Part shown: in pieces, positions 2,202 to 50,411 of the stretch
Layout: every line of letters begins with the position of its first letter
Numbering within the stretch: the stretch's first letter is position 1
Assembly (NCBI GenBank): GCA_028247015.1
Contig: JAOKFJ010000002.1
Span: 1 to 64,000 of the forward strand
DNA: 64,000 bases
Direction: 5' to 3'
Source: Methylophilaceae bacterium
Lineage (GTDB): Bacteria > Pseudomonadota > Gammaproteobacteria > Burkholderiales > Methylophilaceae
Notes under the pieces: generated by a model
The model's input: only the letters and a program-made list of their open reading frames with translations
Told to the model about the DNA's origin: nothing
Database searches by the model: none
Translations under genes and position numbers: made by a program

Positions 2202-3351
2202 GATATTAGTGAATCATAATTATTTTGCAAGCTGCCCTCGGGGTTTAGAAGACATTCTTATTCAAGAGCTGAACCAGATTAGCGCATCTGAAATTAAGAA
2301 AACTGATGGTGGCGTTAGTTTTTCTGGTTCACTCGAAACTCTATACAAAGCTAATTTGTCTAGTCGAATAGCTACAAGAATTTTATGTAGAGTTAAGGAA
2401 GGCAACTATATCAAGGAAGATGATATTTATAATGCTGCGCTTTCTGTTAAATGGACAGATCTTTTTGATATATCAAAAACAATCAAGGTAAGCACAACTG
2501 GTATTCAGTGCCCTTTGAAAAGCATTGATTTTATGACATTAAGAATTAAAGATGCTGTATGCGATCAGTTTAGAAATAAAATTAATCGTAGGCCAGATGT
2601 TGCTGTCAGAGATCCAGACGTTAGAATTCATTTATTTTTAGAAAAGAATACTTTTCAGTTGTATATAGATTCGTCAGGAATAGCCCTTTACCAACGTGGG
2701 TTTAGGAAAGATAGCGTTGAAGCTCCCCTTAGGGAAAATTTAGCAGCAGGTATTATATATCTGTCTGGATGGGCACCAGGCGAATCTTTTTTAGATCCAA
2801 TGTGTGGAAGTGGTACATTTCTAATTGAGGCATCAATGATTGCAGCAAATCAAGCGCCGGGGCTAAAAAGAAAATTTGGTTTTGAAAGTTGGAAGAATTT
2901 TGATTCTGACCTGTTAAATAAAATTAAGTTAGGTTACGAAGCTCAAATTATTAAGGGAGAGCCATTAAGGGTATTTGGATCTGATAAAGACATACGGGCA
3001 ATTCGTGTTGCAAAGAAAAACCTTGCTGCAGCCGGTTTTGAAGATTCCGTAGAGTTAAGCTGTAAGGACTTTAATCAAATAAAAGCCCCTAAAGACGCAG
3101 GCGTTCTAGTTGCTAACCCACCTTATGGGATTCGTATTGGGGAAGATGATGATTTAGCTGAGATCTACCCTTTATGGGCCTCTACACTAAAAAATATTTT
3201 TGCTGGTTGGAGAACATACTTTCTGACTAGTGACTTGAGAATGCCAAAACTTATGCGACTTTCACCTAGTAAAAAGACACCGCTTTATAACGGTGCCTTA
3301 GATTGTCGCTTATTTGAAATAAAGATGGTTGCAGGCAGCAACCGAAAATAA
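2176..3351 (+). CDS. rlmL: THUMP-domain class I SAM-dependent RNA methyltransferase (RlmL/YcbY N-terminal type)
   Basis: NYFASCPRGLEDILIQEL start, DPMCGSGTFLIEASMIA, VLVANPPYGIRIG motif. Confidence 0.8.
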   Translation: MSVVLNSNRILVNHNYFASCPRGLEDILIQELNQISASEIKKTDGGVSFSGSLETLYKANLSSRIATRILCRVKEGNYIKEDDIYNAALSVKWTDLFDISKTIKVSTTGIQCPLKSIDFMTLRIKDAVCDQFRNKINRRPDVAVRDPDVRIHLFLEKNTFQLYIDSSGIALYQRGFRKDSVEAPLRENLAAGIIYLSGWAPGESFLDPMCGSGTFLIEASMIAANQAPGLKRKFGFESWKNFDSDLLNKIKLGYEAQIIKGEPLRVFGSDKDIRAIRVAKKNLAAAGFEDSVELSCKDFNQIKAPKDAGVLVANPPYGIRIGEDDDLAEIYPLWASTLKNIFAGWRTYFLTSDLRMPKLMRLSPSKKTPLYNGALDCRLFEIKMVAGSNRK

Positions 3352-43610: not shown

Positions 43611-45653
43611 ATGCGTTATATAAGCACTTTATGTGTATTTCTTATGTGTTTGCCAATGCAATTAGTGAATGCAGAAGAATTACAGCTCAAAGAAATACCA
43701 GTTACAGCGAACCCACTTAATTTATCAAGTGATGAAATGACGCGCCCCGTTCATATAATGAATGGTGTGCAATTGCAAAACAAGAAAAGTTCCTCTTTAG
43801 GCTCAATGCTTGACAGTGTTCCAGGTCTAAGTAATAACTCTTGGTCTGATAATGTTGGACGGCCTACTATTCGTGGTATGGACAGAAATAGAGTTCAAAT
43901 ACTTAATAATGGTATGCAGATTAAAGATGTCTCTAATCTGTCTGGTGACCATGCAATTTCTCTTGATAGTTTATCTTCTGAACAGATTGAAGTTGTAACA
44001 GGACCTGAAACTATTATTTATGGCGGTGGTGCAGTAGGCGGGGTCGTCAATATTATTGATTACCGTATCCATCCTGAATTTGTTGATGGAATAGTTGGGA
44101 AATACGATGTGAGTAGGGGCGGCGCAAACAATGCAAACTCTAGTTCTATGCTTATCGATATCGGTACCGATAATTTAATGTTCCATCTTGATTTGTATAA
44201 TCGTGATTCTAAGAACATTAAAATTCCTGGATCTTCTGTATCTGAAAAATTAGCTAATTCTGACTCAGAATATCCTACGGGCAAATACGGTAAAGACACT
44301 CTACAAAATTCTTATAACGAAAGTATAGGTGGTGGGGTAGGTGCTACTTACTTCTTTAATAATGGTCATACAGGGTTTTCGTATGCTAAGCATGAGCAAG
44401 AATATGGAACTATCCTTGAGGCCGATGCATTTATTGATTTAGAGTCTGATAACTTCAAATATGAACTTGAAATGCGTGACCTCTCTAATTTTGTCAATAA
44501 ATTTAAGGTTAAAGTAAGTCATACTGACTATGAGCACTTTGAAATGGAGGATTCAGCAATTGGCCTGGATTACTTTGACATAGGCACCGATGCTAAATTT
44601 GAGATAGTTCACTCACTGTTATCTACAGCAGGTGGAGTATTGGGACTTGATATAAGCACATCAAAATTCTCTCAAAATACTAAGCCATATGAACCAAACA
44701 ACAAACGCCAAAATTTTGGATTTTATGCTTTAGAAGGTATTGAAGTAGGCAATCATAAATTTACCGTGGGCTTTAGGCACGACTATCATGATTATGAAGC
44801 TAATGCCTTTACCAGTGATGACGGTGCGCCGACAGAGGGAGGTGATGAAGGTAGTACTAGTTTTGCTGCAACTGAAAAATCATTTCATGCCACAAGCTTT
44901 TCGGTTGGTACGTCTTCAAAAATTAATGATCAATGGGCATTAGCAATTAATGTTGCTCGTACTGAGAGAGCGCCGAATCATGATGAATTATTTGTTTACG
45001 GTGAACACCATGCTACAGAAACTATTGAACACGGTGATCGTACATTATCTGATGAACGTTCTAACTCTGCAGAGGTTACATTAAGTTGGGCAGACCAAGG
45101 TAATGCCTTTTCAGTGTCACCATACTTTATAGACTTTAGTAGCTATATTGCATTATTGGATACGGGAGTTGTTCAATGGCATGAACACGATGGTGAAGAA
45201 GAAGCATTACCTGTCTTCCTCCATCAAAACGTTCCTGCTGATTTTTATGGCTTTGAATTCCAAGGAAATATAGAATTATCTAGTAATTATGGCTTTAATT
45301 ATTGGGGCGACTATGTAAGAGCTAAGAACAAAAATGGTGGCGATCTCCCAAGAATTCCTCCATTAACTCTGGGGTCTGGATTGTCTTATCAGCTTAATGC
45401 TTTGCAGGCGAGTATAGATGTAGAGCATAATTTTAGTCAGACTAATACTGGACCTAAAGAATTAAAGACTGACAGCTTCACAAATCTTTCACTAACCATG
45501 AATTACGAATTACCATTTATGGGAGGAGTTACTGCATTTGTTAAGGGTGATAATCTTTTAGACGAAGAAAGAAGAAACCATGCTTCAAGCCTAAAAGATA
45601 AAGTCTTGTTTGGTCAGAGGGCAATTACAGTTGGTGTTACTGGGTATTTTTAA
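43611..45653 (+). CDS. TonB-dependent receptor, ZnuD-like (putative zinc/metal)
   Basis: Plug VPGLSNNSWSDNVGRPTIRGMDRNRVQILNNGMQ; His/acidic-rich loops (YGEHHATETIEHGD, HEHDGEEE); ends VGVTGYF. Confidence 0.85.
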   Translation: MRYISTLCVFLMCLPMQLVNAEELQLKEIPVTANPLNLSSDEMTRPVHIMNGVQLQNKKSSSLGSMLDSVPGLSNNSWSDNVGRPTIRGMDRNRVQILNNGMQIKDVSNLSGDHAISLDSLSSEQIEVVTGPETIIYGGGAVGGVVNIIDYRIHPEFVDGIVGKYDVSRGGANNANSSSMLIDIGTDNLMFHLDLYNRDSKNIKIPGSSVSEKLANSDSEYPTGKYGKDTLQNSYNESIGGGVGATYFFNNGHTGFSYAKHEQEYGTILEADAFIDLESDNFKYELEMRDLSNFVNKFKVKVSHTDYEHFEMEDSAIGLDYFDIGTDAKFEIVHSLLSTAGGVLGLDISTSKFSQNTKPYEPNNKRQNFGFYALEGIEVGNHKFTVGFRHDYHDYEANAFTSDDGAPTEGGDEGSTSFAATEKSFHATSFSVGTSSKINDQWALAINVARTERAPNHDELFVYGEHHATETIEHGDRTLSDERSNSAEVTLSWADQGNAFSVSPYFIDFSSYIALLDTGVVQWHEHDGEEEALPVFLHQNVPADFYGFEFQGNIELSSNYGFNYWGDYVRAKNKNGGDLPRIPPLTLGSGLSYQLNALQASIDVEHNFSQTNTGPKELKTDSFTNLSLTMNYELPFMGGVTAFVKGDNLLDEERRNHASSLKDKVLFGQRAITVGVTGYF

Positions 45654-45774
45654 ATTTTAAATTTCTGAGCTGCATCCTGCATATTTTGATATGAGCATTT
45701 CATATAGTGTGGGTAGGATGTGGTGAAGTAATTTGTGTCACTAAATTTACTTAATAAAAATGAAGGAATAAAAC

Positions 45775-46146
45775 ATGGAGCATATTTTAGAATTTTACAT
45801 GACAGGAGTAGATGGAAATTTAAGAGGCTTTGTTTTTGGATTCGTTCATGTGTCGATAATGCTACTCGGATACTATACCGGGTGGAGTATAAATAGATTT
45901 TTAAAAATTTTTTCAAATGGTTATATAGCTGGTATTTTTGGCGCAGCACTATCTCATATTGTCGCCGACTTAATTGCCAGTTATATCGATCCACATTTAA
46001 GAAGTATGGTTTTTGGTATTGTTCTTGGCGGAATACTGCCTTTACTCTTTGTTCCAATATTTGAGAAATATGTAGTTAAAAGTAAACACCATATTGTTGT
46101 TGGAGATCATGAAGATGTTTCTGAAGACTTACGATCTAAGCATTAG
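45775..46146 (+). CDS. hypothetical membrane protein in the metal locus
   Basis: Several TM segments, His-rich tail KHHIVVGDHEDVSED; same strand downstream of the receptor. Confidence 0.55.
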   Translation: MEHILEFYMTGVDGNLRGFVFGFVHVSIMLLGYYTGWSINRFLKIFSNGYIAGIFGAALSHIVADLIASYIDPHLRSMVFGIVLGGILPLLFVPIFEKYVVKSKHHIVVGDHEDVSEDLRSKH

Positions 46147-46194
46147 AAGCTAAAAGTAATACAAAAATTTTTTGAGTTTAAAGAGAGGAATAAG

Positions 46195-46593
46195 ATGATA
46201 GCAACACAAGAGATTACCGATAAAATTGCAATAAGTTTGTCATTGGCATGTGCATTTCATTGTCTTTTTTTTCCGTCTATTTTATTAGTTCTTTCAAATT
46301 TTGTTTCTATTAATTTTGATAATGAGTTGATACATTTTTCACTGTTGCTGACGATAGTTCCATTTAGTATTTATGGTCTGACTAAGGGGCTAAGAAATCA
46401 TAAAAAATATTTATTTTTTGTATTAGGTCTATTTGGTATCATTATTCTTTCTTTAGCACTTTTAATAAACAAAGAAATTATAGGGGAATTCGGAGAGGTA
46501 TTTTTAACATTACTTGGCTCAACGATTATTGCAGCCGCACATTTTAAAAACTATAGGCTTTGTAGGCATTTGGATTGTGATTGTCATAATTAG
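46195..46593 (+). CDS. MerC domain membrane protein
   Basis: ITDKIAISLSLACAFHCLFFPSILLVL...; ends CRHLDCDCHN. Confidence 0.8.
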   Translation: MIATQEITDKIAISLSLACAFHCLFFPSILLVLSNFVSINFDNELIHFSLLLTIVPFSIYGLTKGLRNHKKYLFFVLGLFGIIILSLALLINKEIIGEFGEVFLTLLGSTIIAAAHFKNYRLCRHLDCDCHN

Positions 46594-48301: not shown

Positions 48302-48712
48302 CTAAATCTCAAATAAATTGATAAGAAACGGGAAGATAAAGGCGAAAAAAATCCCGACAGTAAAAATTCCTAGCGACACAAAGTAAATAATCAAGGATAA
48401 CCTTCGAGTTTTTTCACATGCATCTGCTAATTTTTTATCTGCAGGACAAGGAAGGCTTCTTGCAAGGTATTGAATTGCCCCAGAAATTATGAGCATGATA
48501 AAAGCACTAATAAATATCGGTATTTTATAGATAGAAAGAATAATTAATTGTGGAAATACCGAAATCAAAGAACTTAATGCGGCTCCGGCACCAATTGAAA
48601 CTAAAAGAGCAGGTAGTGCACAGCAAATAATAGTCCCGCTACTGGCAAATAAAGTTAGATAATTTAATATTTTATGTGACTTTATTGCATCTAATTCCTT
48701 ATTTAGACTCAT
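48302..48712 (-). CDS. MerT-like membrane transport protein
   Basis: MSLNKE...LTLFASSGTIICCALPALLVSIGAGAAL, cytosolic CPADKKLADAC; internal ATG 48712 overlaps the preceding gene. Confidence 0.6.
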   Translation of the reverse strand: MSLNKELDAIKSHKILNYLTLFASSGTIICCALPALLVSIGAGAALSSLISVFPQLIILSIYKIPIFISAFIMLIISGAIQYLARSLPCPADKKLADACEKTRRLSLIIYFVSLGIFTVGIFFAFIFPFLINLFEI

Positions 48713-49016
48713 ATTTTCTTTTAATCTCACTAACAGATTCAGATACAACCTCAATTTTTTTGACGTCGTATCCAGATTCGGTAATAACTGTTCTAATAAA
48801 ATTTTCGTCAATACCATTTTCATCATTTGATTCAATAGCGACGAAGTAATCCTCTAAATTTACAAAAACAGCCTTTACATTTTTAACTGATTCGAAACTT
48901 TTTTCTATGCCCTGTGCACAAAAGGCACAAACCATTCCAAGAACTTCAATTTTTTGCGTTAGTGCATGACTATTGGCACTAAAACATAAGACTCCTATTA
49001 CTATTAATTTTTTCAT
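48699..49016 (-). CDS. secreted heavy-metal-associated (HMA/MerP-like) domain protein
   Basis: Signal peptide; KIEVLGMVCAFCAQGIEKSFESVKNVKAVFVNLED. Confidence 0.85.
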   Translation of the reverse strand: MKKLIVIGVLCFSANSHALTQKIEVLGMVCAFCAQGIEKSFESVKNVKAVFVNLEDYFVAIESNDENGIDENFIRTVITESGYDVKKIEVVSESVSEIKRKYESK

Positions 49017-49027
49017 TGTTTAAACTC

Positions 49028-49618
49028 CTAAAATGTATACATCAAGTGAAGAGATGGGTCTCCATCCGTTATTCCTGCGTCCATAAATATAGCTTTATTT
49101 ATTAGCCTTAATGTTGGGGTATATTCAATTTTTTTGAATAAGCTATTAGTATTTTTAGCTTTTAAAATAAACCAAGGCTGTGTTTCGTTATAACCTGTTT
49201 CATAGAATGAAAATCCACCCTCTATTTTAGTTGTATCAAAATTTTCGTGCCCAACTCTTAAGATCTGATGCGAAAATAAACTAAATAATCTTTTTGTCTC
49301 ATAATCAAATTGCAAAGTAGGGCTTAAGTAAGAGTGATCTTTATCCTTAAAATTTTTCTTAATATTTATTTTTCCAATATTAGTAAAAAGCCATAAATTA
49401 GTTTGTGAGCTAACTGCATTTTTTCTCATCAATCTCCTTAAATGAAATATGTTCCCAGCTCTTAATTTATATCCATTACCTTTAATTGTATGTGCTGATA
49501 TTCCAATGGCATTTTTTGCTGTTATTACATAACTAGATTCTAGGCTAACATGGTCTTTACTGGCTGTAGCCATTGTAGTTATAGATCCCTTGAAGCTCAT
49601 CGGCGCTGCATACAACAT
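49028..49618 (-). CDS. secreted/beta-barrel-like hypothetical protein; canonical start apparently missing
   Basis: In-frame upstream codons encode KKIYALVLLVFLTYQSMLYAAP, a signal peptide, but no ATG/GTG/TTG precedes it before the in-frame stop at 49685-49687. Confidence 0.55.
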   Translation of the reverse strand: MLYAAPMSFKGSITTMATASKDHVSLESSYVITAKNAIGISAHTIKGNGYKLRAGNIFHLRRLMRKNAVSSQTNLWLFTNIGKINIKKNFKDKDHSYLSPTLQFDYETKRLFSLFSHQILRVGHENFDTTKIEGGFSFYETGYNETQPWFILKAKNTNSLFKKIEYTPTLRLINKAIFMDAGITDGDPSLHLMYTF

Positions 49619-49664
49619 TGATTGATAAGTGAGAAATACTAAAAGTACTAGCGCATAAATTTTT

Positions 49665-49949
49665 TTATCGTTTATATAAATCTGTTAATTCCTTAATTTT
49701 TTCATCTTGAATATTTTTATCTTTTGAATGAAATGCTTCCATAACACAGCTTTCAAGGTGTTTTTGAAGCATAATAATCTCCAGTGACTTGCATGCGGAA
49801 CTAACAGCTTTTAGCTGTGTTATGATTTCAGGGCAGTATCTTCGTTCCTCAATCATTTTTTTTATTCCATTTAATTGGCCTGTAACTTTATTTATTCTTG
49901 TAATGTGTTTTTCATAATTTGGATGTTTTGTTTCAGAACAATTTTTCAC
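49665..49949 (-). CDS. csoR: CsoR/RcnR family copper-sensing repressor
   Basis: HITRINKVTGQLNGIKKMIEERRYCPEIITQLKAVSSACKSLEIIMLQKHLESCVMEAF; C-H-C copper ligand pattern. Confidence 0.88.
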   Translation of the reverse strand: MKNCSETKHPNYEKHITRINKVTGQLNGIKKMIEERRYCPEIITQLKAVSSACKSLEIIMLQKHLESCVMEAFHSKDKNIQDEKIKELTDLYKR

Positions 49950-49981
49950 TAGTTTTCCTTAATTATAATTTTGAATACATA

Positions 49982-50002
49982 ATATACCCCATAGGGGTAT
50001 AT
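49982..50002. promoter_or_regulatory. CsoR operator-like palindrome
   Basis: ATATACCCC-ATA-GGGGTATAT, perfect 9-bp arms, 33 bp upstream of csoR and 74 bp upstream of the divergent ORF. Confidence 0.85.
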
Positions 50003-50075
50003 ATCAAATTTTTCTAATAAATAAATTGATTATGGTTGTAATTGAATTAATTATTTTTTTTGGTGTCAGAAAAAT

Positions 50076-50411
50076 ATGTCTATATTATTTAAAATTATTA
50101 TTGCAGTTATTATAATTGTTGCAGCTACTGAGCTCAGTAAAAGAAGTACAACGTTGGCAGCTATTTTACTTGCAATGCCAATTGTATTATTTGTGTCCTT
50201 CACGCTAATATGGGAAGAATCAAAGGATGCCAATAAAATAGCAATGCTTACGCACGAAACTCTTATGTTTATATTGCCAGTGCTTCCATTCTTATTTCTA
50301 TTAAGCTACATGTTAAAAAATGGGACTAATTTTTACATATCCTTAGGTGTCTCTTCACTTGGAATTATTTTGGCGACACTTTTAGTACAAAAATATTTTT
50401 TTCAAACTTAA
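50076..50411 (+). CDS. hypothetical membrane protein
   Basis: Three to four TM segments: LFKIIIAVIIIVAATELSKRSTTLAAILLAMPIVLFVSFTLIW. Confidence 0.6.
   Translation: MSILFKIIIAVIIIVAATELSKRSTTLAAILLAMPIVLFVSFTLIWEESKDANKIAMLTHETLMFILPVLPFLFLLSYMLKNGTNFYISLGVSSLGIILATLLVQKYFFQT

Follow-up and report, generated by a model that had tools for sequence, protein, structure and literature searches.

Current understanding of copper efflux in bacteria is built on P1B-ATPases and RND pumps. What does a CsoR-family repressor control when the genes behind it encode a putative outer-membrane barrel, a secreted HMA protein, and a MerT-like membrane protein, with no CopA ATPase among them? This question is raised by an operon of Methylophilaceae bacterium GCA_028247015.1, carried by a stretch of 64,000 nt (contig JAOKFJ010000002.1, positions 1-64,000, hereafter the window). 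The source assembly amounts to 0.88 Mb in 28 contigs and is 62% complete. Its genus, within the family Methylophilaceae, is made up of OM43-like methylotrophs with genomes of about 1.3 Mb. The closest named loci are found in the marine strains KB13, LSUCC0401, and LSUCC0717 and in metagenome bins of Methylophilaceae, whose MerT-like protein is 78% identical.

A preliminary description of this DNA saw in the operon a mercury-type transport architecture under CsoR control and recruited for copper. As a whole, this reading appears to stand. The evidence comes from sequences and structural models and concerns the anatomy of the operon, the operator, its co-occurrence with CsoR, the gene order, the fold of the barrel, the near-absence of copper ATPases, and the absence of MerA. 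We lean, with some reserve, toward a system that would confer copper-inducible, ATPase-independent copper tolerance at the cell envelope, Cu(I) being passed outward. The link with copper is well supported; we infer Cu(I) as the ligand of the repressor, de-repression by copper, and an outward direction of transport.

Organization of the operon

The genes follow the order CsoR, barrel, HMA, MerT-like, with all four open reading frames on the minus strand (Table 1). The analysis recovered the palindrome and all four genes of the first description, together with the cysteine motifs. A ribosome-binding site precedes the GTG start of csoR, the open frame of the barrel overlaps the end of csoR, and the start of the MerT-like gene overlaps the HMA gene by 14 bases. 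These sequence features indicate that csoR and the barrel-HMA-MerT genes (hereafter the module) are probably transcribed as one unit.

Homologues of the DUF3147/PRK09272-like protein encoded on the other side of the operator also adjoin the module in relatives, in varied positions and orientations. It is possibly an accessory of the system, of uncertain membership. Elsewhere in the window, what seems to be a distinct cluster for zinc-type uptake (43611-46593, plus strand) encodes a ZnuD-like TonB receptor, a MerC-family protein (PF03203), and a small membrane protein. In two loci of relatives (L051 and L071), a ZnuD-like gene follows the MerT gene at a short distance.

Table 1. Coordinates of the operon and of the adjoining features in the window
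Feature	Positions	Strand	Basis or comment
CsoR-family repressor, 94 aa, GTG start	49665-49949	-	PF02583; C-H-C ligand set
Outer-membrane-type 12-stranded beta-barrel ("BAR"), predicted	49028-49684	-	Open frame; AlphaFold model
Secreted HMA (MerP/CopZ-like) protein, 105 aa, MVCAFC	48699-49016	-	PF00403
MerT-like inner-membrane protein, 136 aa	48302-48712	-	Cysteine motifs; profile match to MerT
CsoR type-2 operator, perfect palindrome ATATACCCCATAGGGGTATAT	49982-50002	.	Pattern scan; streptomycete consensus; kept in 14 genus loci
Predicted sigma-70 promoter	49979-50007	-	Consensus match only
DUF3147/PRK09272-like membrane protein, divergent from csoR across the operator	50076-50411	+	Family match; recurs near the module

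The CsoR repressor and its operator

The regulator matches PF02583 with an E value of 3e-24 and 85.5 bits (cut-off 22.8), and its best matches in the PDB are the CsoRs 4m1p and 4adz. The Cys-His-Cys positions that ligate Cu(I) are invariant in 13 CsoRs from loci of the genus. By its sequence, the protein has the attributes of its class, namely the PF02583 fold, the C-H-C ligands, and a G-tract TAC/GTA type-2 operator in the promoter. The 31 genomes of the genus contain 15 CsoRs, all at the module locus, and no second CsoR was found in any of these genomes.

The perfect operator that had been noticed upstream of this C-H-C CsoR is indeed present. It is a 21-bp palindrome, ATATACCCC-ATA-GGGGTATAT, and the sole match with three mismatches or fewer in the 64-kb window, where 0.01 are expected from shuffled sequences. 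The experimentally studied CsoR consensus of streptomycetes is ATATACCCCTNAGGGGTATAT (PMC3902906). The window operator agrees with this consensus at 19 of the 20 defined positions, the only mismatch being located in the non-conserved 5-base spacer. The site lies inside the predicted promoter, whose -35 box TTGATA (50007-50002) and -10 box TATTAT (49984-49979) stand 17 bp apart. The operator takes up this spacer, and a repressor bound there would obstruct the polymerase. In an alignment of the upstream regions of the genus loci, the -10 box is similar and the -35 box often so; the operator, the -10 box, and the ribosome-binding site are kept and the remaining sequence drifts.

The palindrome accompanies the repressor. 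The motif ATACCC-N5-GGGTAT, allowing one mismatch, stands before the operon in all 14 CsoR loci of the genus and in 10 of the 12 more distant CsoR loci. None of the loci devoid of CsoR has the palindrome at this threshold, their best matches having at least 2-3 mismatches. Distant carriers include alphaproteobacterial bins and a Thiotrichales bin (csoR last gene), and sphingomonad-type bins (csoR divergent). The position of csoR varies with the lineage, upstream, divergent, or downstream, and the palindrome stays in front of the operon. The operator class, the position in the promoter, and the co-occurrence of palindrome and CsoR argue for the proposed control of the operon by CsoR. The palindrome also scores like a terminator hairpin, but this reading is less likely because the palindrome is within the promoter and is linked to the presence of CsoR.

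The HMA and MerT-like proteins

The HMA protein carries a signal peptide and the MVCAFC motif. It has the PF00403 domain with a CxxC site that characterizes the class, barely above the cut-off (E 3e-5, 24.9 bits vs. 24.8), in agreement with the MerP-like secreted CxxC protein initially proposed at this place. Its best NCBIfam matches are CopZ models, below their cut-offs. MxCxxC is found in 63 of 79 HMA relatives.

The MerT-like protein has the expected CC pair in membrane helix 1 and a second motif in the positively charged helix 2-3 loop. The latter is CP-x8-C (C89, C99), not CP-x7-C as had first been read. C30, C31, C89, P90, and C99 are invariant in 43 aligned MerT-like sequences. As judged from the alignment and the helices of the model, the protein displays the hallmark of MerT, with its CC in helix 1 and two further cysteines in the loop that joins helices 2 and 3. 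Similarity to the family by sequence profile is faint. The window protein is below the PF02411 cut-off and has no Pfam match, and 6 of 27 relatives match PF02411 weakly (best E 1.4e-4). When sequence profiles are compared, the CC pair aligns with that of MerT proteins from plasmids (E 1.2e-5, probability 81). The structural model shows three long helices and a short one (pLDDT 80), and a PDB sequence search with this protein gave nothing relevant. The best named family is NF045683, the NCBIfam MerT/CopZ fusion-like heavy metal transport selenoprotein, which also joins MerT and CopZ-like parts. However, the score is 18 against a cut-off of 375, and the parts are separate genes in the window. 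On a Vibrio plasmid (L159, 2745-3677), MerT/HMA-like genes adjoin a GDCCVxC (seleno)protein gene and a Tn3 transposase; a similar GDCCVxC gene is found beside merT/merP in L158.

The predicted outer-membrane barrel

The barrel has no Pfam match and no sequence relative in the PDB. Its AlphaFold model, obtained with 51 sequences, consists of a signal helix followed by 12 strands with a mean pLDDT of 92.1. A signal peptide and a closed, even-stranded barrel are the features of outer-membrane beta-barrels, and this confident model supports the putative outer-membrane protein of the preliminary description. The nearest solved folds (TM about 0.5) are the small 12-stranded porins KdgM/NanC, which have the same strand number and size; since the identity is about 8-10%, the likeness is one of fold class rather than of shown relationship. 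The protein is nearly cysteine-free. Methionines located directly after the signal peptide are conserved, M37 being found in 48 of the 51 sequences. Together, the ladder of cysteines in the HMA and MerT-like proteins and the barrel make a relay across both membranes plausible.

In the window, no ATG, GTG, or TTG codon is present where the relatives have their start; ATT and ATA codons are found there, and the first ATG, at 49618, would remove most of the signal peptide. The missing canonical start may be explained by an uncommon start codon or by a mistake in the assembly.

Distribution of the module

The content of the operon had been considered unusual. In fact, the gene set is widespread. 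A MerT-like gene is present in 45 of 149 related genomes, and a scan of about 85,000 species yielded more than 550 relatives. Among the best 80 of these, the barrel-HMA-MerT order is kept in 78 loci. The hosts are beta-, alpha-, and gammaproteobacteria and one Bacteriovoracaceae bin, in a survey biased toward relatives of the MerT protein of the window. Conservation of the operon was one of the checks suggested at the outset; the order is held across three proteobacterial classes. In 300 genomes drawn evenly from the order, the barrel occurs in 26. An operon formed by chance or unique to one genome is ruled out by the 45 genomes and by the conserved order. A mobile plasmid origin was also rejected, the plasmid search having retrieved no barrel and only six distant MerT records.

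Some loci show particular arrangements. In another family of the order (L050), the HMA and MerT-like genes are preceded by a gene for a different outer-membrane-like protein (PF13557, below cut-off). In two genomes of the genus (L048 in G025 and L066 in G015), the barrel and HMA genes are farther apart and no CsoR is present; a small lipoprotein-like gene is seen in the gap of L048. In L072, a gene for a MerR-family regulator takes the place of csoR directly upstream of the barrel (at 3033). Finally, a contig binned as Porticoccus (L075) carries an OM43-type csoR-barrel-HMA-MerT operon, possibly as a result of mis-binning or transfer.

Leader peptides as a probable alternative switch

CsoR is found in 15 of the best 80 loci. 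Another 45 are headed by a small secreted protein containing Cys and His residues and typically ending with PP and a few residues. CsoR and this DUF2946-like leader never occur together at any locus found. The leader replaces CsoR in one genome of the genus (G001), and the window itself has no DUF2946-like leader. When seven leaders were compared with PF11162, one was over the cut-off, three gave weaker matches, and three gave none; the cysteine motif, the C-terminal PP, and the first-gene position were seen by eye.

In many leader-type loci, including L081, L086, L090, L094, and L121, the last codons after PP can pair with the ribosome-binding site of the barrel gene, and the folding z-scores of the leader-barrel region are often -3 to -6. 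The arms of the hairpin differ between lineages yet stay complementary. Pairing averages 9.4 for an arm with its own partner and 3.4 across loci, a control that is supportive in nature because the arms had been chosen for pairing beforehand. Experiments have shown two DUF2946 proteins, CruR (PMC9426467) and CutF (PMC9973294), to be leader peptides that sense copper. For CutF, a layout of this kind is reported, in which copper turns the next gene on (PMC9973294). A CutF-like layout would give the module the same sign of response as de-repression of CsoR.

Copper genes in the genus and around the module

According to the preliminary description, the operon has other genes instead of a CopA ATPase. 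The missing CopA is inconclusive in the window genome itself, because of its incompleteness, and the genus-wide result carries the point. No match to the Cu P1B-ATPase model was obtained in 29 of the 31 genomes of the genus. Of the other two, G001 has a fragment of 428 residues, located on an island, and G022 a single protein that falls short of the cut-off. The lack of CopA hence holds for nearly the whole genus. Family-wide, a Cu P1B-ATPase is above the cut-off in 64 of 90 genomes, and most relatives with larger genomes have one. A second streamlined genus (g14, 1.3 Mb) gave trace matches only; its species with the module are G072, G081, and G089. An RND heavy-metal pump is over the cut-off in 9 of the 31 genus genomes. 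MerA is over the cut-off in none of the 31, and mercury detoxification was rejected on this ground.

Copper genes are found beside the module in relatives. CopA and CopZ are encoded directly behind it in L083, and outer-membrane-factor (OEP) and CusB-like genes follow it in L087. A CusF-type gene is in front of it in L085 (by Pfam) and in L129 (by eye). These neighbors and the lack of MerA in the genus fit the idea of a mercury-type architecture recruited for copper. In G001, a metal island (L165, 4142-13244) begins 1.6 kb behind the module and encodes a cation-diffusion-type protein, an RND pump with its own PP-ending leader, a truncated P-type ATPase, and a MerR-family regulator.

A model for the module and its alternatives

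The control by CsoR, the disappearance of CopA, and the neighboring efflux genes speak for a role in copper tolerance. In the model we propose, CsoR would sit on the palindrome inside the promoter and block transcription. A rise in cytosolic Cu(I) would lead CsoR to bind the metal via its C-H-C ligands and to release the DNA, and the CsoR, barrel, HMA, and MerT-like proteins would be made. Cu(I) would then travel by thiol exchange from the cytosolic CP-x8-C loop of the MerT-like protein to its membrane CC pair and to the periplasmic MVCxFC site of the HMA protein, and would exit through the outer-membrane barrel. No ATPase would be involved, which would suit streamlined genomes in which CopA has been lost.

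The direction of transport is the weakest step, because MerT works inward in mer operons, where it imports Hg(II). No energy source for export is evident, the homology to MerT points inward, and DUF2946 leaders can also repress by copper. Moreover, by Pfam the window proteins resemble MerT and HMA only weakly. We rank outward export first and import second. In a system for copper uptake or delivery, the barrel would admit copper, the HMA protein would bind it, and the MerT-like protein would carry it to the cytosol or to cuproenzyme assembly. Besides the homology to MerT and the same cysteine layout, the methionines conserved just after the signal peptide of the barrel would agree with such a function, as would the CruR case of Bordetella, where a DUF2946-led operon containing a TonB receptor is repressed by copper (PMC9426467). 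However, CsoR would open the genes at high copper, an odd time for import, the efflux genes of L083 and L087 stand behind the module, and the leader's hairpin, which may sequester the Shine-Dalgarno sequence, resembles that of CutF, where copper means on. On balance, uptake seems rather improbable.

The module might also handle another metal or a thiophilic ligand, such as nickel, zinc, mercury, or persulfide, the link with copper then being one of family name only. The CsoR family senses Cu, Ni/Co, persulfide, or formaldehyde, and members with the C-H-C set can also sense nickel (InrS). MerT and MerP are mercury proteins, and L072 has a MerR-type regulator upstream of the barrel. Among CutF-like leaders, those whose motifs have histidine alone go with nickel/cobalt genes (PMC9973294); the leaders of the module, in contrast, have cysteines, as do those associated with copper genes. 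In addition, Cys and His are invariant at the Cu(I) positions of CsoR, the operator is of the copper CsoR type, CusF and CopA-CopZ genes are neighbors, and no MerA is over the cut-off in the 31 genomes. A ligand other than copper is quite unlikely. Finally, it is highly improbable that the barrel, though nearly devoid of cysteine, without a family match, and replaced in L050 by another outer-membrane-like protein (weak PF13557), is an unrelated neighbor or a general porin, with HMA and MerT alone forming the metal system, since it precedes them in 78 of 80 loci from three proteobacterial classes and conserves its N-terminal methionine M37 (48/51).

Relationships with known systems

Among the open-access papers searched, none was found to describe the barrel-HMA-MerT set. 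This accords with the initial statement that no characterized system was known with exactly this composition. The parts are of known kinds, and their combination, their spread, and the two alternative switches appear to be new. We suggest tentatively, as a possibility that falls short of our favored conclusions, that the module is an undescribed ATP-independent route for trans-envelope copper export, spread among proteobacteria, switched by CsoR or by a leader, and replacing CopA in streamlined aquatic methylotrophs.

With the MerT/MerP proteins of mer operons (Tn501/Tn21 type), the module shares a three-helix CC protein, the cysteine pair between helices 2 and 3, and an adjoining secreted CxxC HMA protein. 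In contrast to mer operons, it has neither MerR nor MerA, HMA precedes MerT, a barrel is included, and the regulator is CsoR or a DUF2946-like leader. With the CsoR-copZA efflux operons of Streptomyces, Bacillus, and Listeria, the window operon shares a C-H-C CsoR, and its operator is the streptomycete consensus at the conserved positions. However, a MerT-like protein, a secreted HMA protein, and a barrel are found instead of the CopA ATPase and the cytosolic CopZ.

The third comparison is with CutF-CutO and CruR-BfrG. MerT is mentioned nowhere in the main text of the corresponding papers (PMC9973294, PMC9426467). Relatives of the module share with these systems the secreted Cys/His leader, the PP end, and the possible pairing with the ribosome-binding site, but the genes downstream are barrel-HMA-MerT. 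Within one genus, the same genes are placed under either a DNA-binding repressor or a putative nascent-peptide switch, which makes the module a clean natural experiment on regulatory replacement.
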